A stretch of 64,000 bases of DNA from Monodelphis domestica (lineage: Eukaryota > Chordata > Mammalia > Didelphimorphia > Didelphidae): positions 48,849,395-48,913,394 of the forward strand of contig NC_077235.1 in assembly GCF_027887165.1 (NCBI RefSeq). Direction: 5' to 3'. A program made the translations under genes and the position numbers. Within the stretch, counting starts at the first letter, position 1; each line of letters begins with the position of its first letter. Below are positions 5,757 to 34,240 of this stretch, piece by piece. The notes under the pieces were generated by a model, which was not told the origin of the DNA, searched no databases, and was given only the letters and a program-made list of their open reading frames with translations.

Positions 5757-5892
5757 GAAAACTCTTAGCATTCTAAATGAACCTCTATTGGAGGCTTTGA
5801 GGAGGCCATGTCTAGTCATGTAAGATGAGAGGGAAACCTGGCTCTTTGAGAGAAAGATGGATGACATCCTAGAGGAACTGCCATCCTGAAAG
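5757..5892 (+). other. RSX: Candidate 5' exon of RSX (136 nt)
   Basis: A pyrimidine-rich acceptor (TTCTCTTTGCCTACAG, ending 5756) opens it and the donor AAAG|GTAGGT at 5893 closes it. All frames contain stops, as expected of noncoding RNA. It is non-repetitive and lies between the palindrome at 5541 and the giant repeat exon. Predicted from splice words only. Confidence 0.4.
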
Positions 5893-7010
5893 GTAGGTTG
5901 AAGGTAAACCTAAAATCCAGGTAGAGGACCGAAAAATATCACAAAGTATTATTGCTTAGTTCTAAGGCTCTGCCTAAGGGCTGCCATATTGGCACTTGCA
6001 GTTAAATATGGCCTTGAGTTTCAGAAAACAAGACTTGGATGGGTGAGATGACCATGTCATCCATACCATTTCAGGGAAATTTAACAGGTTAGCAAAAACA
6101 AAGTAGCTATTATTTTTAAGTAGTAAACCTCTTCCTTTTTCCTCCCCTTTTCCCCTTCAAGTGGAAATAATATTTCCTTGGAATTTTTACCATGGCCCCA
6201 TGGTTTCTGGAATCCTGTTTTCTTCTAATCCCCATATGGTGATAATAAGTGTTCTGAATGAAATGTCTCTGACCTTCCACTCTTTTACCTGGCCGTTGGA
6301 ATCCTAAATTTGCCTAATCACAAATGTTTTGGGGGATGCTTAAATAAATTTCTTACATTTCTTTGCTTGGTATCACAGAATGACACTTTTCTAAACAGCT
6401 ACTTAGAGCTCAAACCATTATTTGAGTTGGCAAAACTCAGTATTTTGGGATTTGATATAAAGTTACCTTCATATGTAAATAGATATACTCCACTGGTTCT
6501 TGGGAACTTTTGTAGGCAGAAATATGAATACTGCACTTTGTTGGGTAAGTGATCATGAGAATATTCTAATTAGTGTTGGGCTATGCATTCCACTTTGTTG
6601 AAGAATGGGAAAAAATAATTTGGTATCTACAAAAGTAAATGTTCCTACTTGGGGCCTACAAGTGTTCCAACTGGTATCAGGGTGATGGAATTTCCCATTT
6701 GAGTTGTGTTAGGAGATTATTGTTATCCAGGTATCTGGATGTTCTTCCTCTGGGTTTCAGGAGAAGTAAAAAAATGTTTCATGTGGTTCTTGGCTAGGTT
6801 AAACACTGCACAAGAAGCCTGGAGAGAGGAGCTATCTCCTACATGTCTAGAGGTTGGAAGACCTGAACCTGGAGACTCAAGTAGTGCCACTGCCAGGAAA
6901 GGCAAGCAGTCCTTCTTGTACTTCCTTGCCACTTGCTACAGAACTTTCCACTGGGAGCCATCAAAAGTCAGTACCCACTGGAAGCCAATGAGTAACCCTT
7001 TTTTAAAAAT
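5893..7010. other. Single-copy spacer before the RSX repeats; strong acceptor at 6160-6161
   Basis: No tandem repeat or known element is visible. At 6131-6161 a long pyrimidine tract (CCTCCCCTTTTCCCCTTCAAG) is a very strong 3' splice site on the plus strand, and I take 6162 as the likely start of the giant RSX exon. From about 6950 the phrase CACTGGGAGCCA begins to recur and grades into the GC-rich array. No CpG island is present, so an RSX promoter is not evident here. Confidence 0.5.
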
Positions 7011-7014
7011 TCCA

Positions 7015-8795
7015 TCCTGCTACCTTGAGCCAAAGGACCCAAGCCTCCCACCGGGAAGCATAGGACCCAAACTCCCACTGGGGGGCAAGAGACCCAAGCT
7101 TCCACCGGGAGCAAAGGGACCCAAGCTTCAACTGGGAGCTAAGTGACCCATGCCTCCCACCGGGAGCCAAGGGACCCATATGCCTTCCATTTCGGGGGCA
7201 AAGGGAACCACGTCTCCCACCAGGGTGCAGGGGTTCCAAGTATCCCACTGAGAGCTAAAGGACCCATGCCTCCCACTGGTTGCCAAGGGACCCAAGCCTC
7301 CCACCAGGAGATGGGACCCAAGCCTCCCACCCGGAGCTCTGGGACCCAAACCTCAGGCCTCCCACCAAGAGCCAGGACCCAAGCCCTCCACTGGAAACCC
7401 AAGGTACATGTGCCTTAAGCCTCCCACCTAGTGCCAGTATTGAAGTCTCAGGCTTCTGATTATGAGCCAAAAGGACCCGAAGACTAAGCCCTCAACCTTC
7501 CTTGGAGGCAGGAACCAAGCCTCAAACCTTCCACTGGGAGCTAAGGAACCCAATCCTCAGGATTTTTACCTGGAGCTAAGAGACCCTTTGGCCAGGAGCG
7601 AAAGTCTATATATAACTTCCTACTGGGAGTGAGGACCTAAGCCTCAATCTTCCTACTGGAATCTACCACCAGATGCTAATGGACTTAATCCTGCCACCAG
7701 TAGTCAAGGAACCCACATCTCAGTTCTTTCATCAGCAGCTAAGGACCCAAGCCTAAATCCTTCTACCAGGATTAACCAGGACCCAAAAATCTAAGCCTTC
7801 CCCTGGGATCCAGGCCTGTAGCCTCAAGCTTCCCATCTGGAGCATGGAGCTAGGACCCAATGATCCAATCCTCACAAAGAGATCTGGGAGCCAGGACCCA
7901 AGCCTCAAGTCTCCCATCAGAAGCCAGGAGAACCAATCCTCCATCCAAGGACTGAAGCCTCCTCCTGGGATTCAGAACCCAACCCAACTCTCATAATGAG
8001 TTAAGGAACCCAAAGCCTCAATCCTTTCACTTCAGGGATGAAACCCAAGCCTTCCACAGGGATCCAGGGGACCCAAACTCCCATTAAGTCCTAGGTTTCA
8101 ACTCTTATACTACTTAAGCCAGGACCTAACCCAACTATTGGCAATCAACACCCAAGGACCTAAAACTCTTACATGGAGCCAAGAGGCAAGGCCCTAAGCC
8201 TCCCATTTGGAATCAGGACTCAAGGACTTAAGCCTCCCACTTAGAGCTAGAACCAAAGTTCCCAAGGAGCCAAGCCTCCCACTTGGATCTAGGACCCAAG
8301 GAAATAAGCACCAAAGCCTCCCACCCAAGCCTCCTATCTGAAACTCAGGACCCAAGGACTCAAGCCTCCCACATTAGCCAAGGATGAAGGACCAAAGCAT
8401 TCCACCAGGAGACGGGAAGAAAGGACTTGAGAAGCTAAGCCCACATGGAGCCCAGGACTGAAGGACTGAAGCCTCGCCCCTGAAACCCAGGACCCAAGGA
8501 CCCCCATCCATGCCTCCCACCTGGAACCAGGAACACAGGACCCAGGCCTCCCACCTGGAACTGAGGACCCAAGGAACCAAGGACTGAAGCCTCTCCTACC
8601 TTAGAGCCTTGACCGAAGGACTCAAGCCTCCTACCTGGAGCCAGGAAGAAAGGAGCCAAGAATCAAGCCTCCCATCTAGAACCTGGACCCATGAACAAAG
8701 AACACAGTCCTCCCACTTTTGGAGACCAGGATCCAAGGACTGAAGTCTAGAGTCAGAAACAAAGGAACCAAGAAGCCGGGGACCCAAGGAACCTG
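7015..8795 (+). repeat. RSX: RSX GC-rich domain, diverged left flank
   Basis: Degenerate units of about 30-40 bp carry the words CCTCCCACCGGGAGCCAAGG and GACCCAAGCC, later CAGGACCCAAGGAC. They are recognisable relatives of the homogeneous array to the right but have drifted in sequence and length. This fits an array that is homogenised in its centre and decays at its edge. Confidence 0.85.
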
Positions 8796-9468
8796 GGACT
8801 TAAGACTCCCACCTGAAGCCAGGAAGAAGGGACCCCAAGACACCCACCTAGAACCAGGAAGAAGGGATGCAAGACACCTACCTGGAACCAGGAAGAAGGG
8901 ATGCAAGCCACCTACCTGGAACCAGGAAGAAGGGACGCAAGACTCCCACCTGGAACCAGGAAGAAGGGACCAAAGACTCCCACCTGGAGCCAGGAGGAAG
9001 TGGAAGTGACCCAGGCCTCCCACCGGGAGCCAGGAAAAAGTGACCCAGGCCTCCCATCTGGAACTAGGAAGAAGTGACCCAAGCCTCCCACTTTGAAGCC
9101 AGGAAAAAGTGACCCAGGCCTCCCACATGGAGCGAGGAAAAAGTGACCCAGGCCTCCCACCTGGAGCCATGAAGAAGGAACACAGGCCTCCCACCTGGAG
9201 CCATGAAGAAGGAACACAGGCCTCCCACCTGGAGCCAGGAAAAAGGGACCAGAAGACCCAAGACTCCCAACTGGAGGCGGGAAGAAGGGACCGGAAGATC
9301 TAAGACTCCCCCCGGGAGCCAGGAGGAAGGGACCAAAAAATCCAAGACTCCCAATTGGAGCCAGGAGGAAGGGACCAGAAGATCCAAGACTCCCAACTGG
9401 AGAGAGGAAGAGTGACCCAGGCCGCCTACCTGGAGCCAGGAGGAAAGGACCCAAGGACCTAGTTCTCC

Positions 9469-9854
9469 CAGCTGATGCCAGGAAGAAGGGACCCAGGCCT
9501 CCCAGCTGATGCCAGGAAGAAGGGACCCAGGCCTCCCAGCTGATGCCAGGAAGAAGGGACCCAGGCCTCCCAGCTGATGCCAGGAAGAAGGGACCCAGGC
9601 CTCCCAGCTGATGCCAGGAAGAAGGGACCCAGGCCTCCCAGCTGATGCCAGGAAGAAGGGACCCAGGCCTCCCAGCTGATGCCAGGAAGAAGGGACCCAG
9701 GCCTCCCAGCTGATGCCAGGAAGAAGGGACCCAGGCCTCCCAGCTGATGCCAGGAAGAAGGGACCCAGGCCTCCCAGCTGATGCCAGGAAGAAGGGACCC
9801 AGGCCTCCCAGCTGATGCCAGGAAGAAGGGACCCAGGCCTCCCAGCTGATGCCA
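9469..9854 (+). repeat. RSX: 34-bp unit block, ~11 copies
   Basis: Near-perfect copies of the unit that starts CAGCTGATGCCAGGAAGAAG, spaced exactly 34 bp (for example GCTGAT at 9505 and 9539). No CpG occurs in the unit. Confidence 0.95.
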
Positions 9855-10035
9855 GGAGCAAAGGACCCGAGGAGTCAGGAGCAAAGGACCCGAGGAGTCA
9901 GGAGCAAAGGACCCGAGGAGTCAGGAGCAAAGGACCCGAGGAGTCAGGAGCAAAGGACCCGAGGAGTCAGGAGCAAAGGACCCGAGGAGTCAGGAGCAAA
10001 GGACCCGAGGAGTCAGGAGCAAAGGACCCGAGGAG
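9855..10035 (+). repeat. RSX: 23-bp unit block, ~8 copies
   Basis: Identical copies of the unit AGGAGCAAAGGACCCGAGGA plus GTC. This is the shortest unit in the domain, with one CpG per copy, and it stands apart from the GCCAGGAAGAAG core units on both sides. Confidence 0.95.
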
Positions 10036-10044
10036 CCAGTTCTC

Positions 10045-10230
10045 CCACCTGGAGCCAGGAAGTGACCCAGGCCTCTCACCTGGCGCCAAGAAGTGACCCA
10101 GGCCTCTCACCTGGCGCCAAGAAGTGACCCAGGCCTCTCACCTGGAGCCAAGAAGTGACCCAGGCCTCTCACCTGGAGCCAAGAAGTGACCCAGGCCTCT
10201 CACCTGGAGCCAAGAAGTGACCCAGGCCTC
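10045..10230 (+). repeat. RSX: 31-bp unit block, ~6 copies
   Basis: The unit reads GAAGTGACCCAGGCCTCTCA followed by CCTGGAGCCAA or CCTGGCGCCAA. Copies are almost identical. Confidence 0.9.
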
Positions 10231-10284
10231 TCACCTGATGCCAGGAGGAAGGGACCCAAAGGCCCAAGACTCACACCTGGAGCC

Positions 10285-10395
10285 AGGAAGAAGCGACCCA
10301 GGCATCTCGGAGCCAGGAAGAAGCGACCCAGGCATCTCGGAGCCAGGAAGAAGCAACCCAGGCATCTCGGAGCCAGGAAGAAGCGACCCAGGCCT
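10285..10395 (+). repeat. RSX: 30-bp unit block, ~4 copies (GCATCTCGG variant)
   Basis: The unit reads GGAGCCAGGAAGAAGCGACC followed by CAGGCATCTC. It is a relative of the CpG-rich 30-bp unit that dominates from 13 kb on. Confidence 0.9.
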
Positions 10396-10832
10396 TCCCC
10401 GCTGATGCCAGGAAGAGGCGACCCAGGCCTTCCCCGCTGATGCCAGGAAGAGGCGACCCAGGCCTTCCCCGCTGATGGCAGGAAGAGGGGACCCAGGCCA
10501 TCCCAGCTGATGGCAGGAAGAGGGGACCCAGGCCATCCCAGCTGATGGCAGGAAGAGGGGACCCAGGCCATCCCAGCTGATGGCAGGAAGAGGGGACCCA
10601 GGCCATCCCAGCTGATGGCAGGAAGAGGGGACCCAGGCCATCCCAGCTGATGGCAGGAAGAGGGGACCCAGGCCATCCCAGCTGATGGCAGGAAGAGGGG
10701 ACCCAGGCCATCCCAGCTGATGGCAGGAAGAGGGGACCCAGGCCATCCCAGCTGTTGCCAGGAAGAGGGGACCCAGGCCATCCCAGCTGTTGCCAGGAAG
10801 AGGGGACCCAGGCCTTCCCAGCTTATGCCAGG
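10396..10832 (+). repeat. RSX: 35-bp unit block, ~12 copies
   Basis: The unit GCTGATGGCAGGAAGAGGGG plus ACCCAGGCCATCCCA has a spacing of 35 bp (GCTGAT at 10506 and 10541). It begins as a GATGCC variant and ends with two GTTGCC variants. Confidence 0.93.
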
Positions 10833-13080
10833 AAGAAAGGACCTGAGGAGCCAGGAAAAAGTGACCAGAAGACGCAAGACTCCCACTTGGGGACAGGAAG
10901 AAGTAACCCAGGCCTCTCACCTGATGCCAGGAGAAAGGGACCCAAAGACCCAAGACTCCCACTTGGAGCCAGGAAGAAAGGACCCAAAGACCCAAGACAC
11001 CCACTTGGAGCCAGGAAGAAGTGACCCAGGCCTCTCGCCTGATGCCAGAAAATGACCTGGGCCTCTCACCTGATGCCGGGAGAAAGGGACCCAAAGACCC
11101 AAGACTCCCACCTGGAATACGGAAGAAGTGACCCAGGCCTCTCAGCCAGGAAGAAAGTACGCAAAGACCCAAGACTTCTACCTGGAGCCAGGAAGAAGGG
11201 ACCCAGGCCTCCCAGCAGATGCCAGGAAGAAGGGACCCAGGCCTCCCAGCAGATGCCAGGAAGAAGGGACCCAGGCCTCCCAGCAGATGCCAGGAAGAAG
11301 GGACCCAGGCCTCCCAGCAGATGCCAGGAAGAAGGGACCCAGGCCTCCCAGCAGATGCCAGGAAGAAGGGACCCAGGCCTCCCAGCTGATGCCAGGAAGA
11401 AGGGACCCAGGCCTCCCAGAAGATGCCAGGAAGAAAGGACCTGAGGAGCCAGGAAAAGGTGACCAGAAGACTCAAGACTCCCACTTGGGGACAGGAAGAA
11501 GTGACCCAGGCCTCTCACCTGATGCCAGGAGAAAGTGACCCAAAGACCCAAGACTCCCACTTGGAGCCAGGAAGAAAGGACTCAAAGACCAAAGACTCCC
11601 ACCTGGAATACGGAAGAAGTGACCCAGGCCTCTCAGCCAGGAAGAAAGTACGCAAAGACCCAAGACTTCCACCTGGAGCCAGGAAGAAGGGACCCAGGCC
11701 TCCCAGCAGATGCCAGGAAGAAGGGACCCGGGCCTCCCAGCAGATGCCAGGAAGAAGGGACCCGGGTCTCCCAGCAGATGCCAGGAAGAAGGGACCCGGG
11801 CTTCCCAGCAGATGCCAGGAAGAATGGACCCGGGCCTCCCAGCAGATGGCAGGAAGAAGGGACCCAGGCCTCCCAGCAGATGGCAGGAAGAAGGGACCCA
11901 GGCCTCCCAGCAGATGGCAGGAAGAAGGGACCCAGGCCTCCCAGCAGATGGCAGGAAGAAGAGACCCAGGCCTCCCAGCTGATGCCAGGAAGAAGGGACC
12001 CAAGGAGCCAGGAAAAAGTGACCAGAAGACCCAAGACTCCCACTTGGGGCCAGGAATAAGTGACCCAGGCCTCTCGCCTGATGCCAGGAAGTGACCCAGG
12101 CCTCTCGCCTGATGCCAGGACAAAGGGACCCAAAGACCCAAGACTCCCACCTGGAGTCCGGAAGAAGTGACCCAGGCCTCTCAGCCAGGTAGAAAGTACG
12201 CAAAGACCCAAGACTTCCACCTGGAGCCAGGAAGAAGGGACCTAGGCCTCCCAGCAGATGCCAGGAAAGAAGGGACCCAGGCCTCCCAGCAGATGCCAGG
12301 AAAGAAGGGACCCAGGCCTCCCAGCAGATGCCAGGAAAGAAGGGACCCAGGCCTCCCAGCTGATGCCAGGAAAGAAGGGACCCAAGGAGCCAGGAAAAAG
12401 TGACCGGAAGACCCAAGACTCCCACCTGAGGTCAGGAAGAAGTGACCCAGGCCTCCCACCAGGAGCCAGGAGCAAAGGACCCGAGGAGACAGTTCTCCCA
12501 CCTGGAGCCAGGAGGAAGGGACCCAAAGACCCAAGACTCCCACCTAGACCCAGGAAGAAGCCTCCCACCTGGAGCCAAGAGGAAAGGACTGGAGGAGCCA
12601 AGAGGAAAGGACTCAAGGACCTAGTTCTTCCACCTGGAGCCAGGAAGAAGGGACCCAGGCCTCCCAGCAGATGCCAGCAGGAAAGGACCCGAGGAGCCAG
12701 CAGCTAGGAAAAAGTGACCGGAAGACCCAAGACTCCCAGCTGATGCGAGGAAGAAGTGACCCAGAAGAAGTCTCCCACCTGGAGCCCGGAGCAAAGAACT
12801 GGAGGAGCCTGAAGCAAAGGACCCGAGGAGCCAGGAAAAAGTGACCAGAAGACCGAAGACTCTTACTTAAGGCTAGGAAGAAGTGACCCAGGCCTCCCAC
12901 CAGGAGCCAGGAGCAAAGGACCCGAGGAGACAGTTCTCCCACCTGGAGCCAGGAAGAAGTGACCCAGGCCTCTCACCTGATGCCAGGAGGAAGGGACCCC
13001 AAAGACTCAAGACTCCCAACTGGAGCCAGGAGGAAGGGACCCAAAGACCCAAGACTCCCACCTAGAGCCAGGAAGAAGGG
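10833..13080 (+). repeat. RSX: Mixed block: long composite units and short 34-35-bp runs
   Basis: About 450-bp composite segments repeat, each with ACCAGAAGACCCAAGACTCC, CAGGCCTCTCACCTGATGCC and a run of CAGCAGATGCCAGGAAGAAG units. Copies begin near 10850, 11445, 12005 and 12390. The runs use the CAGCAGATGCC variant instead of CAGCTGATGCC, so this older higher-order family is distinct from the one at 13.6-18.4 kb. Confidence 0.8.
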
Positions 13081-13392
13081 ACCCAGGCGTGTCGGAGCCA
13101 GGAAGAAGGGACCCCGGCGTGTCGGAGCCAGGAAGAAGGGACCCCGGCGTGTCGGAGCCAGGAAGAAGGGACCCCGGCGTGTCGGAGCCAGGAAGAAGGG
13201 ACCCCGGCGTGTCGGAGCCAGGAAGAAGGGACCCCGGCGTGTCGGAGCCAGGAAGAAGGGACCCCGGCGTGTCGGAGCCAGGAAGAAGGGACCCCGGCGT
13301 GTCGGAGCCAGGAAGAAGGGACCCGGGCCTGTCGGAGCCAGGAAGAAGGGACCCGGGCCTGTCGGAGCCAGGAAGAAGGGACCCGGGCCCCC
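13081..13392 (+). repeat. RSX: CpG-rich 30-bp unit block, ~10 copies
   Basis: Copies of GGAGCCAGGAAGAAGGGACC followed by CCGGCGTGTC. Each full copy carries three CpGs, while flanking 34-bp units carry none. The last copies read GGGCCTGTC. Confidence 0.95.
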
Positions 13393-13621
13393 CAGCTGAT
13401 GCCAGCAGGAAAGGATCTGAAGAGCCAGGAAAAAGTGACCAGAAGACCCAAGACTCCCACCTGAGGCCAGGAAGAAGTGACCCAGGTCTCCCACCTGGAG
13501 CTAGGAGCAAAGAACCAGAGAAGCCAGGAGCAAAGGATCCGAGGAGCCAGGAAAAAGTGACCAGAAGACCCAAGACTCTTGGGGCTAGGAAGAAGTGACC
13601 CAGTTCTCCTACCTGGAGCCA

Positions 13622-13985
13622 GGAAGAAGGGACCCAGGCCTCTCAGCTGATGCCAGGAAGAAGGGACCCAGGCCTCTCAGCTGATGCCAGGAAGAAGGGA
13701 CCCAGGCCTCTCAGCTGATGCCAGGAAGAAGGGACCCAGGCCTCTCAGCTGATGCCAGGAAGAAGGGACCCAGGCCTCTCAGCTGATGCCAGGAAGAAGG
13801 GACCCAGGCCTCTCAGCTGATGCCAGGAAGAAGGGACCCAGGCCTCTCAGCTGATGCCAGGAAGAAGGGACCCAGGCCTCTCAGCTGATGCCAGGAAGAA
13901 GGGACCCAGGCCTCTCAGCTGATGCCAGGAAGAAGGGACCCAGGCCTCCCAGCTGATGCCAGGAAGAAGGGACCCAGGCCTCTCA
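13622..13985 (+). repeat. RSX: 34-bp unit block, ~11 copies (CTCTCAGCTGATGCC variant)
   Basis: Identical 34-bp units with CCTCTCAGCTGATGCCAGG in place of CCTCCCAGCTGATGCC. The block precedes the first spacer of the main higher-order repeat. Confidence 0.93.
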
Positions 13986-16900
13986 CCTGGAGCCAGGAGC
14001 AAAGAACCGGAGAAGCCAGGAGTAAAGGATCCGAGGAGCCAGGAAAACGTGACCAGAAGACCCAAGACTCCCACCTGAGGACAGGAAGAAGTGACCCAGG
14101 TCTCCCAGGAGCAAAGGACCTGAGGAGCCAGGAGCAAAGGATCCAAGGAGCCAGCTCTCCCCCCTGGAGCCAGGAAGAAGTGACCCAAGTCTCACACCTG
14201 GAGCCAGGAGGAAGGGACCCAAAGACCCAAGACTCACAACTGGAGCCAGGAGGAAGGGACCCAAAGACCCAAGACTCACACCTGGAGCCCGGAGGAAGGG
14301 ACCCAAAGACCCAAGACTCACACCTGGAGCCAGGAGGAAGGGACCCAGGCGTGTCGGAGCCAGGAAGAAGGGACGCAGGCCTGTCGGAGCCAGGAAGAAG
14401 GGACCCAGGCGTGTCGGAGCCAGGAAGAAGGGACCCAGGCGTGTCGGAGCCAGGAAGAAGGGACCCAGGCGTGTCAGAGCCAGGAAGAAGGGACCCAGGC
14501 CTCCCAGCTGATGCCAGGAAGAAGGGACCCAGGCCTCCCAGCTGATGCCAGGAAGAAGGGACCCAGGCCTCCCAGCTGATGCCAGGAAGAAGGGACCCAG
14601 GCCTCCCAGCTGATGCCAGGAAGAAGGGACCCAGGCCTCCCAGCTGATGCCAGGAAGAAGGGACCCAGGCCTCCCAGCTGATGCCAGGAAGAAGGGACCC
14701 AGGCCTCCCAGCTGATGCCAGGAAGAAGGGACCCAGGCCTCCCAGCTGATGCCAGGAAGAAGGGACCCAGGCCTCCCAGCTGATGCCAGGAAGAAGGGAC
14801 CCAGGCCTCCCAGCTGATGCCAGGAAGAAGGGACCCAGGCCTCCCAGCTGATGCCAGGAAGAAGGGACCCAGGCCTCCCAGCTGATGCCAGGAAGAAGGG
14901 ACCCAGGCCTCCCAGCTGATGCCAGGAAGAAGGGACCCAGGCCTCTCACCTGGAGCCAGGAGCAAAGAACCGGAGAAGCCAGGAAAACGTGACCAGAAGA
15001 CCCAAGACTCCCACCTGAGGACAGGAAGAAGTGACCCAGGTCTCCCAGGAGCAAAGGACCTGAGGAGCCAGGAGCAAAGGACCTGAGGAGCCAGGAGCAA
15101 AGGATCCAAGGAGCCAGCTCTCCCCCCTGGAGCCAGGAAGAAGTGACCCAAGTCTCACACCTGGAGCCAGGAGGAAGGGACCCAAAGACCCAAGACTCAC
15201 AACTGGAGCCAGGAGGAAGGGACCCAAAGACCCAAGATTCACACCTGGAGCCAGGAGGAAGGGACCCAAAGACCCAAGACTCACACCTGGAGCCAGGAAG
15301 AAGGGACCCAGGCCTGTCAGAGCCAGGAAGAAGGGACCCCGGCGTGTCGGAGCCAGGAAGAAGGGACCCCGGCGTGTCGGAGCCAGGAAGAAGGGACCCC
15401 GGCGTGTCGGAGCCAGGAAGAAGGGACCCCGGCGTGTCGGAGCCAGGAAGAAGGGACCCCGGCGTGTCGGAGCCAGGAAGAAGGGACCCCGGCGTGTCGG
15501 AGCCAGGAAGAAGGGACCCCGGCGTGTCGGAGCCAGGAAGAAGGGACCCCGGCGTGTCGGAGCCAGGAAGAAGGGACGCAGGCGTGTCGGAGCCAGGAAG
15601 AAGGGACCCAGGCGTGTCGGAGCCAGGAAGAAGGGACCCAGGCGTGTCGGAGCCAGGAAGAAGGGACCCAGGCCTCCCAGCTGATGCCAGGAAGAAGGGA
15701 CCCAGGCCTCCCAGCTGATGCCAGGAAGAAGGGACCCAGGCCTCCCAGCTGATGCCAGGAAGAAGGGACCCAGGCCTCCCAGCTGATGCCAGGAAGAAGG
15801 GACCCAGGCCTCCCAGCTGATGCCAGGAAGAAGGGACCCAGGCCTCCCAGCTGATGCCAGGAAGAAGGGACCCAGGCCTCCCAGCTGATGCCAGGAAGAA
15901 GGGACCCAGGTCTCTCACCTGGAGCCAGGAGCAAAGAACCAGAGAAGCCAGGAAAACGTGACCAGAAGACCCAAGACTCCCACCTGAGGACAGGAAGAAG
16001 TGACCCAGGTCTCCCAGGAGCAAAGGACCTGAGGAGCCAGGAGCAAAGGACCTGAGGAGCCAGGAGCAAAGGATCCAAGGAGCCAGCTCTCCTCCCTGGA
16101 GCCAGGAAGAAGTGACCCAAGTCTCACACCTGGAGCCAGGAGGAAGGGACCCAAAGACCCAAGACTCACAACTGGAGCCAGGAGGAAGGGACCCAAAGAC
16201 CCAAGACTCACAACTGGAGCCAGGAGGAAGGGACCCAAAGACCCAAGACTCACACCTGGAGCCCGGAGGAAGGGACCCAAAGACCCAAGACTCACACCTG
16301 GAGCCAGGAGGAAGGGACGCAGGCGTGTCGGAGCCAGGAAGAAGGGACGCAGGCGTGTCGGAGCCAGGAAGAAGGGACCCAGGCGTGTCGGAGCCAGGAA
16401 GAAGGGACCCCGGCGTGTCGGAGCCAGGAAGAAGGGACCCCGGCGTGTCGGAGCCAGGAAGAAGGGACCCCGGCGTGTCGGAGCCAGGAAGAAGGGACCC
16501 CGGCGTGTCGGAGCCAGGAAGAAGGGACTCAGGCCTCCCACCTGATGGCAGGAAGAAGGGACTCAGGCCTCCCACCTGATGGCAGGAAGAAGGGACTCAG
16601 GCCTCCCACCTGATGGCAGGAAGAAGGGACTCAGGCCTCCCACCTGATGGCAGGAAGAAGGGACTCAGGCCTCCCACCTGATGGCAGGAAGAAGGGACTC
16701 AGGCCTCCCACCTGATGGCAGGAAGAAGGGACTCAGGCCTCCCACCTGATGGCAGGAAGAAGGGACTCAGGCCTCCCACCTGATGGCAGGAAGAAGGGAC
16801 TCGGGCCTCTCACCTGATGCCAGGAAGAAGGGACCCAGGCATGTCGGAGCCAGGAAGAAGGGACGCAGGCGTGTCGGAGCCAGGAAGAAGGGACCCAGGC

Positions 16901-19832: not shown

Positions 19833-19850
19833 TGAGGATGCAGGCCTTCC

Positions 19851-21330: not shown

Positions 21331-21336
21331 TGAACC

Positions 21337-22016: not shown

Positions 22017-22034
22017 GGTAAGGTCATCTATGAT

Positions 22035-23187: not shown

Positions 23188-23897
23188 AAAAGATACATCT
23201 TGGTGCCTTGAGGGAAAAAAAATGATTGCTCCCAATTTGTTGCTGGAGAACAAAATGATTCCTTTTGGTACTTGGAGGATCCTTCTGTTCCTGGATATGA
23301 GAAGAAAGACTCCTTTTCATTCCTGGATTAAAAAAAAAAGATTCCTCCTGGTCCATGGAAGGGAAAAAAAGGATTCCTCTTGGCACCTGGAAAAATTAAA
23401 AAGCATTCCTTTTGATACCTGGAGAATAAAAAGTATTCCTTTTGGTGCTTGAAGTGAGGGAAAAAAAGATCACTCCTTGTTCCTGGATAAGATTCTCCTG
23501 GTCCCTGGAAAAGGAAAAAAAGATTCCTCCCAATGCCTGGAGAACAAAATGGTTCCTTTTTGTACCTGGAGGATCATTCTGTTCCTGGATATGAAAAAAA
23601 GACTCTTCATTCCTGGATTAATAAAAAGATTCCTCCTGGTCCTTGGAAGGAACAAAGGATTCTCTTCGCACCTGGAGAAAATGAAAAAGCATTCCTTTTG
23701 GTACCTGGAGAATAAAAAGTATTCCTCTTGGTGCCTAGAGGGGAAAAAGATTCATCTTTATCCCTCCAGGTTCCTGTAGAATTTATTAAAAAAAAAAATC
23801 CTGATACCTGGAGATTCCTTTTGGTGCCTGGAGTGAAAAAAAGATTCCATGTTCCTGGAAGATTCCTCTCCTGGTCCCTGGAAGAAAAAAAAAAGGA

Positions 23898-23940
23898 TTC
23901 CTCTTGGCACCTGGATAAAATTTTTTTGTGCCAAGAGGAA
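23898..23940 (+). repeat. RSX: RNA hairpin, same 13-bp stem (copy 2)
   Basis: Exact second occurrence of both 13-nt arms (23898-23910 and 23928-23940) with the same 17-nt spacing and a U7 loop run. Confidence 0.9.
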
Positions 23941-24357
23941 AAAGATACTTCTTGGTGCCTTGAGGAAAAAAAAAATGATTGCTCCCAATTTGTTGCTGGA
24001 GAACAAAATGATTCCTTTTGGTACTTGGAGGATCCTTCTGTTCCTGGATATGAGAAGAAAGACTCCTTTTCATTCCTGGATTAAAAAAAATAAGATCCCT
24101 CCTGGTCCTTGGAAGGAACAAAGGATTTCTCTTGGCATCTGGAGAAAATTAAAAAGTATTCCTTTTGATACCTGGAGAATAAAAAGTATTCCTTTTGGTG
24201 CCTAGAGGGGGGAAAATATTCATCTTATTCCTCCAGGTTCCTGTAGAATTAAAAACAATTCCTGATGCCTGGAGATTCCTTTTGGTGCCTGGAGTGAAAA
24301 AAAGATTCCTTGTTCCTGGAAGATTCCTCTCCTGGTCCCTGGAAGGAAAAAAAAGGA

Positions 24358-24400
24358 TTCCTCTTGGCACCTGGATAAAATTTTTTTGTGCCAAAAGGAA
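24358..24400 (+). repeat. RSX: RNA hairpin, one mismatch in the stem (copy 3)
   Basis: The left arm (24358-24370) is unchanged and the right arm (24388-24400) reads GTGCCAAAAGGAA, so one pair of the 13 is lost. Spacing and loop are as in the other copies. Confidence 0.88.
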
Positions 24401-25900
24401 AACATACTTCTTGGTGCCTTGAGGAAAAAAAAATGATTGCTCCCAATTTGTTGCTGGAGAACAAAATGATTCCTTTTGGTACTTGGGAGGATCCTTCTGT
24501 TCCTGGATATGAGAAGAAAGACTCCTTTTCATTCCTGGATTAAAAAAAAAAAGATTCCTCTTGGCACCTGGAAAAAATTAAAAAGCATTCCTTTTGATAC
24601 CCAGAGAATAAAAAGTGTTCCTTTTGGTGCCTAGAATGAAAAAAGATTCTTGGTGTCTTGAGGAAAAATGATTCTTCATGGTGCCTGTAGAAAATAAAAA
24701 GTCCTCTTGATGCCTGGAGGAAAAAGGATTCCTTTTGGTTTCTAGAGGAGGGAAGAAGATTCTTTTGGTTTCTGAAATTTGAAAGCATTCCTTTTGGTAC
24801 CTGTAGTAAAAAGAACTTGGTTGCCTGGCTTAAAAAAAATTCACCTTGGTACCTAAAGAAAAAAAAAAGATTCCTCTTAGGGCATCAAAGGGATGTAGGT
24901 GGGACAAATTCTTCTTGGTGCCTGGAGATCCCTCTGTGTCTACAGAAGACTGCATTCCAAGTTCCAGGAGACTCAAGAATTCTCAGCAGTCCAAGGAGAT
25001 GTAAAAATTGTCCTATACCTAGTGAAGTAAGTAGTCATCCAGAGGGAGATATTACCCTATGTCTAAAGACTCCTCTTGATTCTAAGGATTCCTCTTGATA
25101 CCTGAGTGAGAAAAGGGAAACAAAAAGACTCCTTTTGGTGCCTAGAGGAAAAACAAGGATTCTTCTGGTTTCCTGCAGGAAGAAAAGTATTCTTCTTGAT
25201 GTCTAGGGGGGGGGTGGATTTCCTTTGGCACCTGGAAGGAAAAACATTTTTGTAGGGGGAAAAAAGGATTCCTTCTGGTGCCTGGAGAAAAATTTCTCCA
25301 TTTCTCTTGGTGCCTAGAGAAAAATTATTCCTCTTGGTGTCCAAAAAAGAAAGGATTTCTTTTGGAAAGAAAGAAAAATACAGATTTCTCTTGAATCCTG
25401 GAGGAAAAAAGGATTTCTCTTGGTACATGGAGAGACAAGTATTGCCCTATCTCTGGAGATCCTCTGTATGTCTACAGAAACACATTATTTTTAGTTCCTG
25501 GAGTCTCAAGGATTTTCAGTAGTCCATGGATATGTCAGTATTGTGACCTAGTGAAGTCTTATAAATCTTATGTTATCCTGTGTCTAGGAGAAAAAGGATT
25601 CCTCTTGTTGTTGTTTGGAAAATTAAAGAAATGATTCCTCTGGGTGCTTGGAAGGAAAAAAAGGATTTCTCTTGGTCACTGGAGGAAGGAAAAGAAATTC
25701 TTCTTGGCTTCCTCTTGGTGCCTGGTGGAAGGAAAAAAATATATTCTTTTTTGGTGCCTCAAGGGGGAAAATTTTTCTTGGTGCTCCATGTGTGCAGATC
25801 CCTTTGTGTCTACAGAATTACCCTTAGTTTCTGGAGACTCTTTAACTGCCATGGAGATGTAAATATGAAGTAAAAAGTATTCTGTTTTCTCCAAAGGAAG

Positions 25901-27530
25901 AGATTATTCTGTGCCTGGAAACATTAATTCCTCTTGATGTCAAAAGATCCAAATCTTGCCTTCTGCTGAAATGAGCAGAGTCTCTTGGTCCTTGGAGATG
26001 GAATCATTCAACTATTCCTCTTGATGCCACATGATGCCTATATTTCCTCTTGATGCAACAAAACCTCCCTTGATGCCAAGAGATGCCTTTGATGCTTTGA
26101 GATAATTTCAATAATAATCAGTCAAGTATTTCTCTTGGTGAAGAAGATATGCCAATGATTTTCTGGAGAATCAAATATTCTACTTTAGTAGAGGCAAAAA
26201 GCTTTCTTGCTTTCTGAAATTTCCCTTGTACGCATTCTACTTGGTGTTCCAGAAATGGAAACATTCTAGGAAATTTCGGCATTTCTCTTGATGCAAGCAT
26301 TTTTTGAAGAATCAATATGGGAGGCACAGATGTCTGGAGAGACAAGCATTCTGCTTGATGTACAGAAATACAAGTATTCTAGGAAATTCCAGTATTTCTT
26401 TCAATGGAAGTATTTTAAGTATTTACTCTGAATAATCAGATTCTGCTGTGACCTTGTCACAGGTCTGGAGAGGCAAAAAAATCTATCTTTTGGAGAGGCA
26501 AGCATTCCACTTAGTGTCCAGAAATGCAAATATTCTAGGCATTTATTCTCGATGCAAGTACTTCAATGATTTTGTAGAGAAATCAGATGGAAGATCTGAT
26601 CATGCAGTCACAGGTCTGACCTCAAAGGGTGAGCATTTCACTTCATGTACAATAAAAAAAACAAACACACTATGAAATTACATTATTTCCCTTGATGCAA
26701 GGAAATTTCTGGAGAACAAACATTCCATTCAGTTTGAGAGGTAAAAACTCCCCTTGCCTTTTGGAGAGGTAATCATTCTACTTGGAGTCCAGAAATACAA
26801 AGGACATTCCAATGTTTCTCTTGATGCAAATAATCCAATGATTTTCTGGATAATGAAATTTTCCACAGAGGCAAAAAGTTTCCTGACTTTTAGAGAAGCA
26901 AACATTCCACTTGGTGTCTGGAAATACAACTATTTTATCAAACCCCAGTATTCCTCTAGGTGCAAGTATCCCAAGCATTTTCTGGAGAATGAAATATTCT
27001 ACTTGCTTTATGGTAGTCACAGGTATTTTGGAGAGGCAAAAAGTCTTTTAGGGGGGAAGACAAGGAATCCACTTGGTATCCAGAAATGTAAATACTCTAG
27101 TAGGAGGTCCTAGTATTTCTCTTGATGCAAGTAATCCAATGATTTTCTGGAGGACAAAATGGAGGACTTCTTTTATAGGAATTTAGGCATCTGGAAAAGC
27201 AAAGTCTCCTGACTTTTAGAGAAGCTGGAAATAAAATCATCTAGGAAATCCCAGTATTTCCCAAGTACAAGTATTCATTTAATGGAGAATCAAAATAGTC
27301 TACTTATTTTATGGGAGGCACAGGCATTCCAGAGAAGTATTCAACCTGTTCTCTAGGAAATTTCAATATTCCAATCACTTTCTGGAGTTCTATCTTTTGG
27401 AGAATGAAGTATTCTACTTATTTTAAGGGCTTCACTATTGTCTGAAGCAAAACTCAATAACTTCTCCATAACTTCTTGAAAGGCATCACGTCAAGGAATG
27501 GAAAGCTAATTCACATCCAGACAATTTCAC
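25901..27530 (+). repeat. RSX: RSX domain with ~150-200-bp composite units (GATGCAAGTA / CATTCTACTTGG)
   Basis: Repeated order of phrases: CATTCCACTTGGTGTCCAGA, AATATTCTAGGAAATTCCAG, TATTTCTCTTGATGCAAGTA, CCAATGATTTTCTGGAGAA, then a TTTTGGAGAGGCAAA word. Good examples start near 26115, 26330, 26500, 26770, 26890 and 27060. It differs from the domain on either side and is strongly diverged. Confidence 0.75.
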
Positions 27531-28300
27531 ATCCAGAGAAGAAAATATTTTGCCTGATTTTTCCTCTGCTTTGTTCATGGGTCACAATTTTCCTCCCCTA
27601 CTCACTTTCTGGAATTTTTTTTTTCTGGAATTAGTTTCTGGATTTTCCCTCTCTTCACTCAGCTTGGTTTCTGAAGAATTAAGTATTGAATTTTTCCTGC
27701 CTATTTTACGAAGTCTACTATTTTCTATTTGGTTTCTGGAAGATATGGTTTTTTGTTTTGGCCTTCCAGAACCTAAAATTTTGTCCTTCGTTTCTGGGAA
27801 AAAAATATTTTTTTTCTAGAATTTTTTCCAAGTGTGGTTTTGGGAATCTACAATTTCCCCCCTTTGCTTGGTTTCTGGAATATTAATTTTTTCCTTGCCG
27901 GGTTTTTGATAGCTACAAAGTACCTTGTACTATGCTTCTCACATGGATTCTACATAATTTTATTCTTTGAATTTGGAAATATAATTGTACCTCCATCTCC
28001 ATATTTAATTTCATGTTTTTCTCATATTCAGTCCCTAGAATATTTTTCCTACTCAATTTCTGGAATCTACATTTTCCCCACCTGTGCTTCGTTTTTGCAG
28101 TATTTTTCCTTTGCTTGGTTTCTTGAATATTTTTACCATTTGCTTTCTTGAATTTTTAACTTCTACACTTGGATTATGGAATTTGGACCTCCCCTCCCCC
28201 CATTTGTTTTTTATATGCTACATGGTGGCATTAAGTATAGATTCTCCATTTTGTTTTGGTGAGTATTAATTGGTAAGTATTCTTTTTGTGGCTATGGTAA
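27531..28300 (+). repeat. RSX: RSX U-rich domain, GGTTTCTGGAAT units
   Basis: Short irregular units of about 35-50 bp carry TTGCTTGGTTTCTGGAATAT and runs of T with CCTCCC words. It forms the transition to the long TGGAATACAA domain. Confidence 0.7.
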
Positions 28301-31300
28301 GTGCCACTTTTTCTCTAGGTATTGCTCACAACGTTTTTATGTGCCTTCTGGGACATGCAAGTTTTGTGGAATACAGATCATTTCGCTGCTGAGATACCCA
28401 ACCCATCCTCCTTGGTTTTGTGGAATACAGTTTCTTTTTTTCCCCAAAAAAAATTTGGCAACTAGATACCCTCTTCATTTGTAAACTCAGCTCAGAGATT
28501 CAAAACATTCCCTTGTTTTCTGTGGAATACAAGCTTTCCTAAAAACGTGGTAACTGGAACTTCTATTCCTTCCCCCATGGTTTCTGGAATATATATGGGT
28601 TTTTTTAAATTGCCTGAGAGAACCTATCCCCTTATTCAATGGAATGCAAATTTTTGAAAGTTCAACAACTGGAAGATATAATTGCCTTTATCTGTATAAT
28701 GCAATTAAAAACAAAACAATTGAACAAGAGATTCAAATCAGTTCCCCTTTTTCTATGGAATACAAATTTTTTCTGTTTCACATCAGGGGAATCCAGTCAT
28801 ACCTCTTGATCTGGGTAAAACAAATGTTTTACATTTGGCATCTGGGAGTCAATCATCTCTTTGATCCGTGGAATACAATTTTTAAAACTTGCCAGTAAAT
28901 TTAATCATACCCCTTTGTGCAATAAAAGTTTTTGGTTTTTGATTCAGCACCTGAGAGATCAAAGCATCTTCTTGCATTTGCGGGATACAAGTGGCTTTTT
29001 TATTCATAAAAATTGGCAGCTGAGAGATCCAGTGATTCTCCTGATTTGCAGAATATAAAAAATTTAAAAATTGGCAGCCCCTCTGAGATCAACTAATTGC
29101 CTTGTGTTTTTTTTTTTGTTTTGTTTTTTCCTATTTGGCACCTGCAAGAGCTCCCTTAGTTTGTTTTGTTTTTTTGTCACTTGGCAGCTAGGAAATCCAG
29201 TCATCCTCATTCGTCTGTAAATACAAAATTTTAACATTTGGCAGCTGGGAGATCTCCTTTTGTGGAATTAAGGGGTTGGGTTTTTTGTTATTGTTGATGA
29301 TGGTGGGTTTTTTTTTGTTATTTTTTGGTAAATGGCAGATAGGAGATCCAATCATCCTCTGATTTGTTGAATATAGAATTAAAAATTTTGACACCTGGAA
29401 GATATCATCGTTCCCTTTTTGTGAAATACAAGTGTTGGGTTAAAAATGAAATTGGTGGCCAGGAGATCTAGCCATACTCCCCAATTTTGTGGAATAAAAT
29501 TTTTTTAAATCTGTCAAGTTGGAGATCTCATCGTTCCCCTTTTTGTGGAATACAAGTGTTGAGTTTTTTTTTTTTTATTGGCACCTAGGAGATATAACCA
29601 TTCTTCATTTAAGGAAGAAAAAGTAAAATTTGGCAGCTGGGAGATCTCATCCCCCTTCATATGTGGAATACAAGTTTTTGGGTTTTTTTCCCACTTGGGC
29701 AGCTGGGAAACGATTCCCCTTCATGTGTGGAATACAAATGTTTATTTTCTTAATTGGCACTTGGGCGATCCAATCATCTTACTTGATTTGTGGAATACAA
29801 AATTTTAAAATTTGTCAACTGGAAGACCTAATCATCTCCCTTTATTTTGTGGAATACAAGTTTTGGTTGTTTTATATTTGGCAGCTGGGAGATTTGTTTC
29901 TTCCCCATTTATTTTTGAAATATAATTTAAAATATTTTGCATCTGGTTGATATAATCATCTTGGTTTGTGGAATAAAGTGTTATTTTTTAAATTCATTTT
30001 TCATCTGAGACATCTAGTCATCTGGTGTTTTGTGGAATACAAGGTTTTTTTCATTGGCATCTGCAAGATCTAAGAATCTAATTGTTTTGAGGAATACAAG
30101 GTGGTTTTAATTTTAATTCTGCATCTGGGAGATCTAAACACCTTCCTTATTAATGTGCAATATAAGGTTTTTAGAATTTGCTCCTGTTTTCTGGATGTTG
30201 CTGGTTTGTGTTGTCTTTTGGTTGGTTTTGTTGGTTTGGCAGCTAGTGTTTTTCTACTTGGTTGTTAGGCTTTTAGAATAAGTTTTTACATTGGCAGCTG
30301 GGAGAATATTCTTGGTTTATGAAATACAAAGTTTTAAAAGCTCAGTGGCTGATCCTCCCATCTTTGTTTGTTATCCTAACGTTTACAATTTAGCTGCTTG
30401 GGAGATCCAATGGTCTTTATGCTGTTTAGGCTGTTTTTTTTTTTTGGGCAAAGCATTGGCCAAATGACCCTCTTGGATTATTATAATGCAATATTATTGT
30501 TGGGAGAGCCAGTTGATTTCCCTTGGTTTATGTAAATAATATATAAGTAATTGTTGCTTTATTGGATCTTTTTATCTCTTTATTAGGAGATCTATTTGAT
30601 CACCTTGGATTGTAGCATACCAATTATTTTAATTGGCAGCTGTGAGACCTAATTAACCTCCTTCATTTATGCAATGAGGTTGCTTTAATTGGCAGCAGGT
30701 CTAATCAGTATTCTTGGATTATGTAATAAAAGTTTTAATTGGCAGTTGAGGTCCAATTGAACACTATTCACCTATGCAGTACAAATGGTTGTTTTAGTTG
30801 GCACCTGGGAGATCCAGTTGATTCTCTTGCTTTAGGCAGTACACACAAGTTGTTTAAATTGGCAGCTTGGAGTCGATTCCCTTGGCCTAGGCTTATATAC
30901 ATAGCCTTTTACTGGTAGCCGGAATATCTAATCAATCCCCTTGGTTTATGCAATACTTGTGATACAAGTTATTTTAATTGGTTGTCCTGAGGTTTTCTCC
31001 TGTGGTTTGTGCAATGCAACTTGTTGCTCCTTTAATTGGCCATTGGGACATCTAATCAAAGGATTCTGTTATACAAGTTTCATTTGCAACTGGATGATCC
31101 TTACTTCGTGCAATAAAAAGTGTTTTCTTTTTCTTTTGGCAGTCAGTAGGTTCATTCATTCGTTCCCCTTGGTTTGTGTGATAGAAATATTCTTTAGAAT
31201 ATTTGGTTGGGAAATCCAATTTTCCCCTTTGGTATATGGAATATGAGTTTGTTTAAATTTGTTTGGAAGATCCATCTTAGTGGTGTTTGAGATAATCGCC

Positions 31301-32391
31301 CATTGTGGAATGTTAATGGTTTGTGGAATATGTTATTTTCTTTGACAGCTGGGAGATAATCATCAACTCACTTAATGGAATACAAATTCTTATCCTTGTG
31401 GAATACAAATTTTTCTTTGGCACCCAGGAGATCCAATCATCTTCCTTGCTTTATGGAATACAAGTTCTCCTTGTGGAATTAATTTTTTTTGGTAGCTGGA
31501 AGATATTGACTCCCCTTGGTTTACTTGGTGGCTGGTTTTTTGTTTTTTTCATTGCTTTTGTTTTCTATTTTTTGTTTTTTCCTGGAGTGCCTGGAAGATC
31601 TCATCCTTGGTTTGGAATACAAAATATTGCTCCTTTTCATTTGTGGAATACAAGGTCTTTGGAGGGTTTGCTTCATCCTAGAAGATATCATCATCATCCT
31701 TGGTTTGTGGAATACAAAATTATTATTCCTTTGGAATAAAAGGTCTTTGGGGGGTTTGTTTGCTGCTTGGAAGATCTCATCCTTGGTTTGGAATACAAAA
31801 TTTACCATTTTTTTGTGGAATACAAATTTTTTTGGGGGCTTGGAAGATATCATCCATCTTTGGTTTGGAATACAAATTCTGGAATACAAGTTTTTTTTGG
31901 TTTTTATTTTTGGTTTCTTTGGTGTGTGTTTGGAAGATTTCATCATCCATTCTCCTTGGTTTGTGGAATACAAAATTTTCATTTGTGGAATACAAAGTAT
32001 GGTTTTTTTCTTTTTGGTTTTTTTTTCCTTCCCTAGTGCATGGAAGATGGAAGATCATCCTCAGTGGTTTGGAATACAAAATTTGTCTTTGCTCATTTAT
32101 GGAATATAAGGGCCTTTTTTTTTTTGGCTTTGAATATCTGCTACTTGTTTTGGAATACAAAATTTGTTCATTTGTGGAATACAAATTTTTGGGCTTTTAT
32201 TTTTTGGTGCTTAGAAGATCTCATCCCCTTTCATTTGGAATACAAAATTTGTCATTCTCCATTTGTGGAATACAAGTTGTGGGCTTTTTTTGTTTGTTTT
32301 TTGTTTTTTTTTTTGTTTTGTGTTTGGTTTTTCCTGGAAGATCTAAACATCTTTGGTCTGTGGAATACAATTTTTTTTTATGATTGGTATT
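28301..32391 (+). repeat. RSX: RSX U-rich domain with TTGTGGAATACAAATTTT units (~55-60 bp)
   Basis: About 4 kb of units, each holding TTGTGGAATACAA, a U-run, then GGCAGCTGGGAGATC and TAATCATCCTCC. In the right third the GGCAGCTGGGAG part becomes TTGGAAGATCTCATCC. I estimate about 65-75 units. The RNA is rich in U-tracts suited to PTBP1, CELF, TIA1 or ELAVL-type proteins, which is also true of XIST repeats A and E. It is probably the 3'-most named RSX repeat. Confidence 0.85.
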
Positions 32392-32449
32392 GTAAGTGGT
32401 ATTGTAATACCACTTACAAATGTTGTAAGTGGTATTGGTGTTGGTAAGT
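32392..32449 (+). promoter_or_regulatory. RSX: Three nested 5' splice sites with a 12-bp hairpin
   Basis: GTAAGT occurs at 32392, 32425 and 32444. GTAAGTGGTATT (32392-32403) is followed by GT and then its exact reverse complement AATACCACTTAC (32406-32417), so the first donor can be locked in a 12-bp stem. The complement could equally pair with the later donors GTAAGTGGTATT (32425-32436) or GTAAGTGG (32444-32451). One of these probably ends the giant exon. Confidence 0.6.
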
Positions 32450-32977
32450 GGAAACATTCCACTTAGGTAGGTACCAATTTTTCTCATTTCCCAAATATAT
32501 TTGAAATATATAAATATTCTAAAAGCAATACTACAATTCTCTGCTTAGGGGCAACTCTGGGAAATTCTGCATAAGGGGCATGACTCCCCATCCTCTTAAA
32601 TTAAGCTGAACATAACATTACTGGATTTGGAATTGAGGCCCTATATAGCCTGTCACATGAAAGGAATGCTATGTCTACATGACAGCTAGCATCCACTTAA
32701 GAGGAACTGTATTGCAAAGTAAGAGGGGAGAAATTATATTTCTAGTACATGACTTATTATTAGGTGGAATTAAGATGTCCTTGGTTTGGTCCTTTTCTCT
32801 CTGGGCCTCTATTTACTACTTTTTAACATGAGGAGTTGAGATTCAGGTGATCTTTGAGGTCCCTTATCTCTGATACTTCAAAATTTTATGAAAATTAATA
32901 AGCATTCAGCATGTTCAAATAGCCTTTCCCAGCTTTCACGATGACTATGAAGTCACATGTAGAATTTTGTTTTCCAG

Positions 32978-33070
32978 GTGTTGTGCAAGCCCTGCATTCA
33001 AGGAGCCCTCCTGGTCATCCGTTGGATCTTCTCATTGTGGATTTCTGGACCAGAATCATATACTTGGAAG
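32978..33070 (+). other. RSX: Candidate RSX exon (93 nt)
   Basis: The acceptor AATTTTGTTTTCCAG ends at 32977, and the donor TGGAAG|GTATAG starts at 33071. The exon is not repetitive and no coding role is evident. Confidence 0.5.
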
Positions 33071-33814
33071 GTATAGGGCTTTTGTATCTTTAAGGGAGTG
33101 CCTTGTGTAGATGGGATCTGGGATCCTTTGAAGAATGTTTGCAGTCAGTCTGTATCCAAGACTTCCTGGGTGTTTGAGAGGAGTGCAGCGTGCAAATTCT
33201 TTTTATTCTGTGTGTTCCTTACTTATTCTCTGATAAGATGCAAGTGTTCAGTCTTTGCCCAAATGACTTCCTAGAAGTATATTCCCAGGAGTGGTATTAC
33301 TATTTGAAAGGTAGTCAAGTTAATGGGATGTATCTGTAGTTCGTGTGATTGCCCTCAAAAGATTTCGCCCATTCTCATGGCTACCGTTCTAGTGAGAGTA
33401 CCCCATTAGAGAACCTGATGGTCTCTTTTCACCTATTTACTTCCAGCCTCTGCTTCCATGAGTTAGCCCTTGAAATCCTTTAGAAATGGCACCAGTGGAT
33501 GATGGATACTGCCTAGATGTGCTGTGACATATTCCACCCCCCTTTTTTTAACGGGAAATAGGTGATATTTGAATTGTAAACTGACAGCCTGGTGCCTAGC
33601 AGTATAGTATAATAGAAGGTGGCCTAGCTCAGAGTATAAGACTGGGTTCTGATGGAGTCTGAAACACTTAAAGGACTACCATTTGTGCACTCCTTGCTTC
33701 TGATTGGAGTGTGATGGTGCAAAGAATCTAAAATCAGGGATTGATGATACAGTTGGCTACATCACAACCTCTTATAATGTTAGATCAACACAGGATCCTT
33801 GCTCTGTAGCAGAG

Positions 33815-33915
33815 TCCTGAAATTTAGAATTAGAAGGGATCTTGGAGATCCCTGAAGCCATTCACTTCATTTTATAGACCAGGCAACTGAGGTCTCGAGA
33901 GGGGAAGGGCTTACA
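33815..33915 (-). mobile_element. MIR fragment
   Basis: Reverse-oriented MIR-like words: AATTAGAAGGGATCTTGGAG, CATTTTATAGACCAGGCAAC and TGAGGTCTCGAGAGGGGAAG. It lies in the putative last RSX intron. Confidence 0.6.
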
Positions 33916-33945
33916 AGTGTCTTCTTGTTTTTTTTCCCCATTCAG

Positions 33946-34240
33946 CCACATACCAGGCCACTACCCAGATCCATTGCTGAGGAGACATACCTGCCTACCA
34001 GAGATCCCCCCGGGGCCTGCGCTGGATGCCAAGAAGAGAAACCAACACCCCCCCACCCCCCCTCCCCGCCCCAATCCTTTGTTAAAGTTCCCTAGACTGT
34101 TAACTTCTATTTTCCCTTGGAGTTTTGACCAATTTGTTTTGTCACCCCTACTTATGTACTCCCTTGTCCCTTCACCCCAGCCACTTTTGATGCCCTTTTC
34201 CCTAAGATCATGTACCCTAAATAAACTTTGTTTTTAAAAG
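33946..34240 (+). other. RSX: Candidate terminal exon of RSX
   Basis: A long pyrimidine tract (TTCTTGTTTTTTTTCCCCATTCAG over 33922-33945) makes a strong acceptor. The exon runs to a cleavage site about 15 nt after AATAAA at 34220, followed by a T-rich element. A frame of about 100 codons crosses it (33917-34237) but begins inside the upstream intron and resembles no family I know. Confidence 0.55.
34220..34225 (+). terminator. RSX: Polyadenylation signal AATAAA (putative RSX 3' end)
   Basis: Canonical hexamer in CCTAAATAAACTTTG, followed by T-rich sequence. It is the first such signal after the last good acceptor. Confidence 0.6.

Follow-up and report, generated by a model that had tools for sequence, protein, structure and literature searches.

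The question raised by this 64,000-nucleotide stretch of Monodelphis domestica DNA (contig NC_077235.1; the whole of it is called the window here) is whether it carries the gene for RSX, the long repetitive RNA thought to shut down one X in females, and, if so, on which strand and how completely. RSX of this species, with the RNA record JQ937282, was reportedly described by Grant et al. in 2012. An earlier note on the window had placed a four-exon RSX gene on the plus strand at 5757-34240, next to HPRT1. The evidence presented here points to most of the RSX gene of M. domestica, or of a very close relative, lying on the plus strand and convergent with HPRT1, with a probability of about 0.93 that covers the gene, the strand and the neighbour. 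RSX at this locus is an already known gene.

Both RSX quantitative PCR (qPCR) primers given for M. domestica in a Nature paper of 2025 (PMC12221971; here and below, published statements are those found in excerpts of the papers cited) had exact, single matches in the window, facing each other (Table 1), with 39/39 bases matched and the next best sites in the same direction showing 3 and 6 mismatches. Eight control primers for other genes from that paper gave no match (0/8), their best sites carrying 4 to 7 mismatches on each strand. Counts of the motifs AG-12a, AG-12b and AG-12c over the whole window were 181/10/6 on the plus strand and 0/0/0 on the minus strand, against means of 0.08 for AG-12a and 0.11 for AG-12b in 100 random sequences that reproduce the dinucleotide content of 6.16-20 kb, and 34/35-base motifs with AG-12 cores were present on the RNA strand. 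Since the AG-12 motifs sit on the plus strand and never on the minus strand, the plus strand is the RNA strand, as the earlier note had proposed. RSX on the minus strand was ruled out by motif strand, primer direction and domain order.

The neighbour was recovered by tblastn with a human HPRT1 protein sequence, which found seven coding exons on the minus strand, presumably exons 2, 3, 4, 6, 7, 8 and 9 by the human numbering; one of them matched solved HGPRT chains in the PDB (E 2.4e-37). Because these exons lie on the minus strand, RSX and HPRT1 are convergent, tail to tail, with ~8.4 kb from the RSX end at 34240 to the nearest HPRT1-side AATAAA at 42639, a layout that agrees with the placement of RSX downstream of HPRT1 (PMC3820666).

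Tandem repetition, described in the earlier note as nearly continuous from about 7 to 32.4 kb, was found in 231 of the 254 100-bp tiles at 7.0-32.4 kb, except for a gap at 21-22 kb (2/10 tiles); a tile counted as positive when its alignment to sequence within 500 bp beat the best of 8 shuffles plus 2 points. Elsewhere, repetitive tiles numbered 16/50 at 1-5 kb, 2/20 at 5-7 kb, 9/106 at 32.4-43 kb and 36/210 at 43-64 kb, 19 of these last 36 belonging to an array at 60-62 kb, and the dense repetition ends near the proposed donor cluster at 32.4 kb. The layout is that of RSX, with GC-rich tandem repeats on the 5' side and more repeat domains behind. Tandem Repeats Finder (TRF) reported a GC-rich block at ~7.0 to 19.8 kb, with units of 34, 42, 35, 30/31 and 23 bp in the repeat-1-type domain (hereafter repeat 1), and a second set at 23.3-24.8 kb. 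Long self-matches in repeat 1 showed higher-order repeats at lags of ~963, 1005 and 3014 bp, with ~90-91% identity. Degenerate families were located at 22.2-25.5, 26.1-27.2 and 31.5-32.3 kb by repeat search, and a further one at 29.3-30.2 kb by self-BLAST. A short interspersed element (SINE) family has 12 loci in the window, leaving out one that overlaps another copy; the sole one within 6162-32443 is a weak fragment at 21848-21906. The longest ATG open reading frame (ORF) of the model RNA, 290 aa, is at 19085-19957, at the end of repeat 1. That all this is an ordinary GC-rich satellite beside HPRT1, without a long noncoding RNA (lncRNA), merits practically no credence: tandem arrays are by themselves no proof of transcription, but the published RSX primers, motifs and landmarks match here in order.

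Two further observations concern repeat 1. Near-perfect local expansions (23 bp x 8.1 and 31 bp x 6.3) occupy 9853-10237, directly upstream of the AG-12b cluster, and are possibly variable between animals. Antisense to repeat 1, an 893-aa stop-free frame on the minus strand (13915-16596) is probably a product of the repeat period.

The published description of JQ937282 (PMC6664574) supplies landmarks for comparison. That RNA has 67 AG-12a, 31 AG-12b and 7 AG-12c motifs, with the AG-12b cluster at 4,141-4,631 and the AG-12c cluster within 9,821-10,620; its totals are 542 r-AG sites, 287 r-UC sites and 141 r-AG 12-mers, and its 1-kb bins have r-UC:r-AG motif counts of 33:27 at 12,941 and 26:3 at 18,241. 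A length of 24.09 kb was derived from 542 sites at 22.5 per kb. In the window, the AG-12b cluster lies at 10480-10806 and the AG-12c cluster at 19664-19872. The r-AG and r-UC motifs were counted with our own coding of the published rules, applied to the exons of the earlier note. A joint fit of the two bins paired 22140 with 27340-27590, a spacing of 5200-5450 against 5300 published; the alternative pair, 24180-24230 (33:27) with 31060-31120 (26:3), was rejected, since its 6.9 kb spacing clashes with 5.3 kb. A rigid fit of the landmarks placed the window position at the RNA position plus 9.1 to 9.4 kb (best 9201), and the maximum motif lengths, 17/10, are as published. The single giant exon of the earlier note, at ~26 kb, thus agrees with the repeat profile, the motifs and the landmarks of the published RNA.

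Three sets of results weigh against the identification. First, the window has 181 AG-12a motifs rather than 67, 10 AG-12b rather than 31, 237 r-AG 12-mers rather than 141 and 628 r-AG sites rather than 542 (the r-UC sites, 274 against 287, count in its favour); because the AG-12 and r-AG counts differ, the array sequence of the window differs from that of the published RNA. Second, the plus strand of repeat 1 had a mean folding z-score of +0.69 (n=10), with no extra structure seen, and neither the folding of three repeat-1 units nor that of 200-nt windows gave the plus strand of repeat 1 an advantage; the most structured stretch was 22.2-25 kb (mean z -2.08 on the plus strand, n=7). Third, the start of the published RNA maps to ~6.29-6.34 kb if colinear, so that any upstream exons must be short or offset by fewer repeats in JQ937282.

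The differences in counts could stem from polymorphism, from collapse in the older record or from a sister species. From the RNA start to 22 kb, repeat 1 appears to be longer by about 3 kb in the window than in the 24-kb JQ937282, a surplus that fits the higher-order repeats of ~1 kb; the older record may have collapsed some repeat copies, or haplotypes may differ. The drop in AG-12b from 31 to 10 is not explained by collapse. The RSX of another didelphid, or a diverged copy still functioning as RSX, would account for AG-12a and AG-12b counts unlike those of JQ937282 and is compatible with the identification as RSX, but is unlikely given the match of all 39 primer bases and the HPRT1 neighbour.

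The splice signals on which the four-exon model was built were all located, with acceptors ending at 5756, 6161, 32977 and 33945, donors at 5893, 32392, 32444 and 33071, and AATAAA at 34220; the exon sum, put at ~26.8 kb, was computed as 26,806. Scored with an approximate matrix, the donors ranked 4 (5893), 23 (32444), 77 (32392) and 202 (33071) among 2,519 plus-strand GT, and the acceptors 20 (33946), 89 (5757), 153 (6162) and 226 (32978) among 5,215 plus-strand AG. As a yardstick, HPRT1 exon ends gave six acceptors (ranks 48-537) and six donors (ranks 46-271) with scores >5, and 2 of the 13 ranges queried had no site exceeding 5; the HPRT1-side donor at 44541 is probably not the real site. 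The RSX candidates look like real sites of ordinary strength, many non-sites scoring equally, and the plus strand of the window has 56 AATAAA, that at 34220 included. Sequence evidence by itself leaves the junctions unproven. Position 6162 is a plausible acceptor and start of the giant exon, which may continue to 33070. Where the last repeat domain ends, three GTAAGT donor-like sites (32392, 32425 and 32444) are packed into 58 bp (32392-32449), and 5 of the 9 plus-strand GTAAGT in the window are found at 28273-32444.

At the 3' end, the landmark fit puts the end of the published RNA at 33.2-33.5 kb of the window if unspliced; therefore ~0.75-1.05 kb would have to be spliced out before 34240, 3' of 27.5 kb. 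The two introns of the four-exon model remove 1,409 nt together, and 33071-33945 alone removes 875. Landmark lengths thus lean against the intron at 32444-32977, but the same signal could arise if repeat lengths differed by a few hundred bases. The model RNA would measure 26.8 kb with the proposed exons and 27.3 kb with 32444-32977 retained. The r-UC sites number 274 in the four-exon model, 282 with 32444-32977 retained, 287 with 33071-33945 retained and 295 unspliced. As a guide to intron choice this fit is weak, with variants A-F spanning 272-295 against the 287 published for a shorter array: the variant retaining 33071-33945 meets 287 exactly, whereas the one favoured by length gives 282.

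While gene, strand, neighbour and giant exon stood, the claim that the whole gene lies within 5757-34240 did not. The proposed first exon opens at an acceptor, which implies an upstream exon. The published coordinates, chrX:35,605,415-35,651,609, span 46,195 bp (PMC9604385, PMC4302592) and in a review the RSX segment, given as 47 kb, lies downstream of HPRT1 (PMC3820666), compared with a span of 28.5 kb in the four-exon model; given this span and location, the start would fall outside the window. The first exon and promoter thus probably lie to the left, the start being roughly 12-15 kb beyond the edge, given a tail at ~34.2 kb and correct gap sizes in monDom5. Rightward extension to reach 46 kb was rejected, as it would cross HPRT1, of which RSX lies downstream according to the review. 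No CpG island was found in 1-7 kb of the window, where the sequence before 5757 lies; upstream of koala Rsx there are two CpG islands with lower methylation in females (PMC7934952), and the region that contains the opossum RSX promoter carries methylation in oocytes but lacks it in sperm (PMC12221971). A complete gene of four exons, starting at ~5757 with its promoter just upstream, would draw on an exon sum of 26.8 kb equal to the published 27 kb and on the colinear RNA start near 6.3 kb, but the acceptor at its opening, the published span of 46 kb, the lack of a CpG island in 1-7 kb and the disagreement of the 3' length landmarks make it very unlikely.

The left part of the window is taken up by a tandem array of ~67-bp units (Table 1). 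Within 1-5300 lie 33 of its 34 plus-strand anchors, compared with a mean of 0.25 and a maximum of 2 in 20 shuffles; four minus-strand anchors lie elsewhere in the window, and profile matches (E up to 0.01) are confined to 44-4943. The array is CpG-poor, with a GC skew of -0.42 to -0.46 in 1-4 kb, is missing from the TRF list and, by landmark positions, is outside JQ937282. It seemingly runs off the left edge and is probably within the long first RSX intron or upstream of that intron.

CCC occurs at 42.9 per kb on the plus strand and 22.3 on the minus strand at 7.0-19.9 kb, in repeat 1, and TTTTT at 28.0-45.7 per kb on the plus strand and 0.7-4.3 on the minus strand at 28-32.4 kb, which would fit recruitment of poly-C and poly-pyrimidine binders. 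In the literature, hnRNPK is enriched in RSX RNA immunoprecipitation, and its depletion partly reactivates alleles of the inactive X (PMC11112854); the inactive X is the source of RSX, and a transgene brings about cis silencing in mouse cells (PMC12287537, PMC3820666). We propose that RSX would be transcribed from left to right, towards HPRT1, from a methylation-controlled promoter left of the window, whose first exon would be joined across a long intron containing the 1-5 kb array to one giant exon of ~26-27 kb carrying the tandem-repeat domains, with a short terminal exon ending at ~34.24 kb. As in the published model, the RNA would stay on the X that produces it; hnRNPK and other RNA-binding proteins would be drawn in by the C-rich repeat 1 and by the later, pyrimidine-rich repeats, with repressive chromatin as the outcome.

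A 940-bp CpG island, with 72 CpG and an observed/expected ratio of 0.83, lies between RSX and HPRT1. It holds 4 of the window's 12 CTCF-like matches of >=11 bits, at 39770, 39837, 40232 and 40296, all in the same orientation; in 200 random sequences with the dinucleotide content of the island, the mean was 0.125 and there were never >3. Repeat 1 has five of the other eight on the plus strand, four of them tandem copies of one unit, and one on the minus strand; the remaining two are at 36210 and 62438. In oocytes and embryos the maternal X produces an antisense RNA, XSR, and the control of XSR and of the maternal imprint is called unestablished in the excerpts (PMC12221971, PMC12287537). An island just past the RSX tail could be the place for an antisense promoter. 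As a tentative proposal, possible rather than probable, the island would be both XSR promoter and insulator. On the maternal X, where it would be active and bound by CTCF, it would send XSR leftward through RSX and the RSX promoter, help to set the maternal methylation imprint and shield HPRT1, and the 1-5 kb array, purine-rich in the XSR sense, would be the site at which XSR forms stable RNA-DNA hybrids. Titles and abstract openings of related literature, which do not cover key RSX papers, make no mention of an island between RSX and HPRT1, and the novelty of the element is unproven. With its CTCF-like motifs, this island is a concrete candidate for XSR and maternal imprint control.

Table 1. 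Features located or proposed in the window, with the evidence for each.
Feature	Position	Strand	Basis
Degenerate ~67-bp pyrimidine-rich tandem array, broken by SINEs	1-4960	+	Anchors, profile matches
Possible short RSX exon, 136 nt, not the first exon	5757-5892	+	Acceptor rank 89/5215, donor rank 4/2519
RSX giant exon as proposed	6162-32443	+	Repeat profile, motif and landmark match to published RNA; exact ends predicted
RSX repeat-1-type domain	7027-19872	+	TRF, AG-12 motifs, long self-matches; named by position and composition
qPCR amplicon, 189 bp	8825-9013	+	RSX primers from excerpts of PMC12221971, exact single matches
AT-rich tandem domains, in the position of published RSX repeats 2-4	22200-32400	+	Self-alignment; numbering 2-4 putative
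Proposed intron, 534 nt, doubtful	32444-32977	+	RNA length landmarks fit better with retention; soft evidence
Proposed last intron, 875 nt	33071-33945	+	Weak donor, strong acceptor
Probable RSX terminal exon, AATAAA at 34220	33946-34240	+	Splice signal and poly(A) motif
CpG island with four CTCF-like motifs, candidate XSR promoter or boundary	39541-40481		CpG content, motif matches; function putative
HPRT1, 7 coding exons found	43428-58291	-	tblastn, human protein; one exon against PDB HGPRT chains

Other features lie on the HPRT1 side. Inside HPRT1, an open 389-aa frame on the minus strand (49397-50563) matches nucleophosmin (Pfam 4e-35; PDB 8as5, E 8.6e-84) and is apparently an intronless NPM1-like retrocopy. 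Upstream of HPRT1 exon 2, an AT-rich tandem array occupies 60000-62300, with 19/20 tiles repetitive at 60-62 kb. Rfam (at gathering scores) and ARAGORN gave no match in the window, and a Pfam comparison of ten ORFs from the RSX-HPRT1 interval returned nothing at E 0.1. Among ten more pieces compared with Pfam, the nucleophosmin frame alone was above the cut-off; two others, one holding an HPRT1 exon (E 0.0032) and one matching a leader peptide (E 0.032), fell below it.

Set beside M. domestica RSX as represented by JQ937282, the locus is alike in primers, RNA-strand motifs, domain order, HPRT1 neighbour and ~27 kb of predicted exon, and differs in its additional repeat 1 and its AG-12a and AG-12b counts. 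Koala Rsx (29.8-30.4 kb; PMC7934952), compared by description only, is a long lncRNA gene found by homology to opossum Rsx, with CpG islands upstream. According to published evidence, the eutherian XIST/Tsix pair operates in a similar way to RSX, as a repeat-rich cis-silencing RNA with an antisense partner (XSR here, Tsix in mouse), whereas XIST has no linear sequence homology to RSX by published reports (PMC11112854) and is not a member of the same family. The stretch, which has no N, shows a longer repeat 1 and fixes the tail-to-tail layout of RSX and HPRT1. RSX is the marsupial counterpart of XIST, evolved independently, which makes its precise structure important when the two inventions of chromosome-wide silencing are compared.

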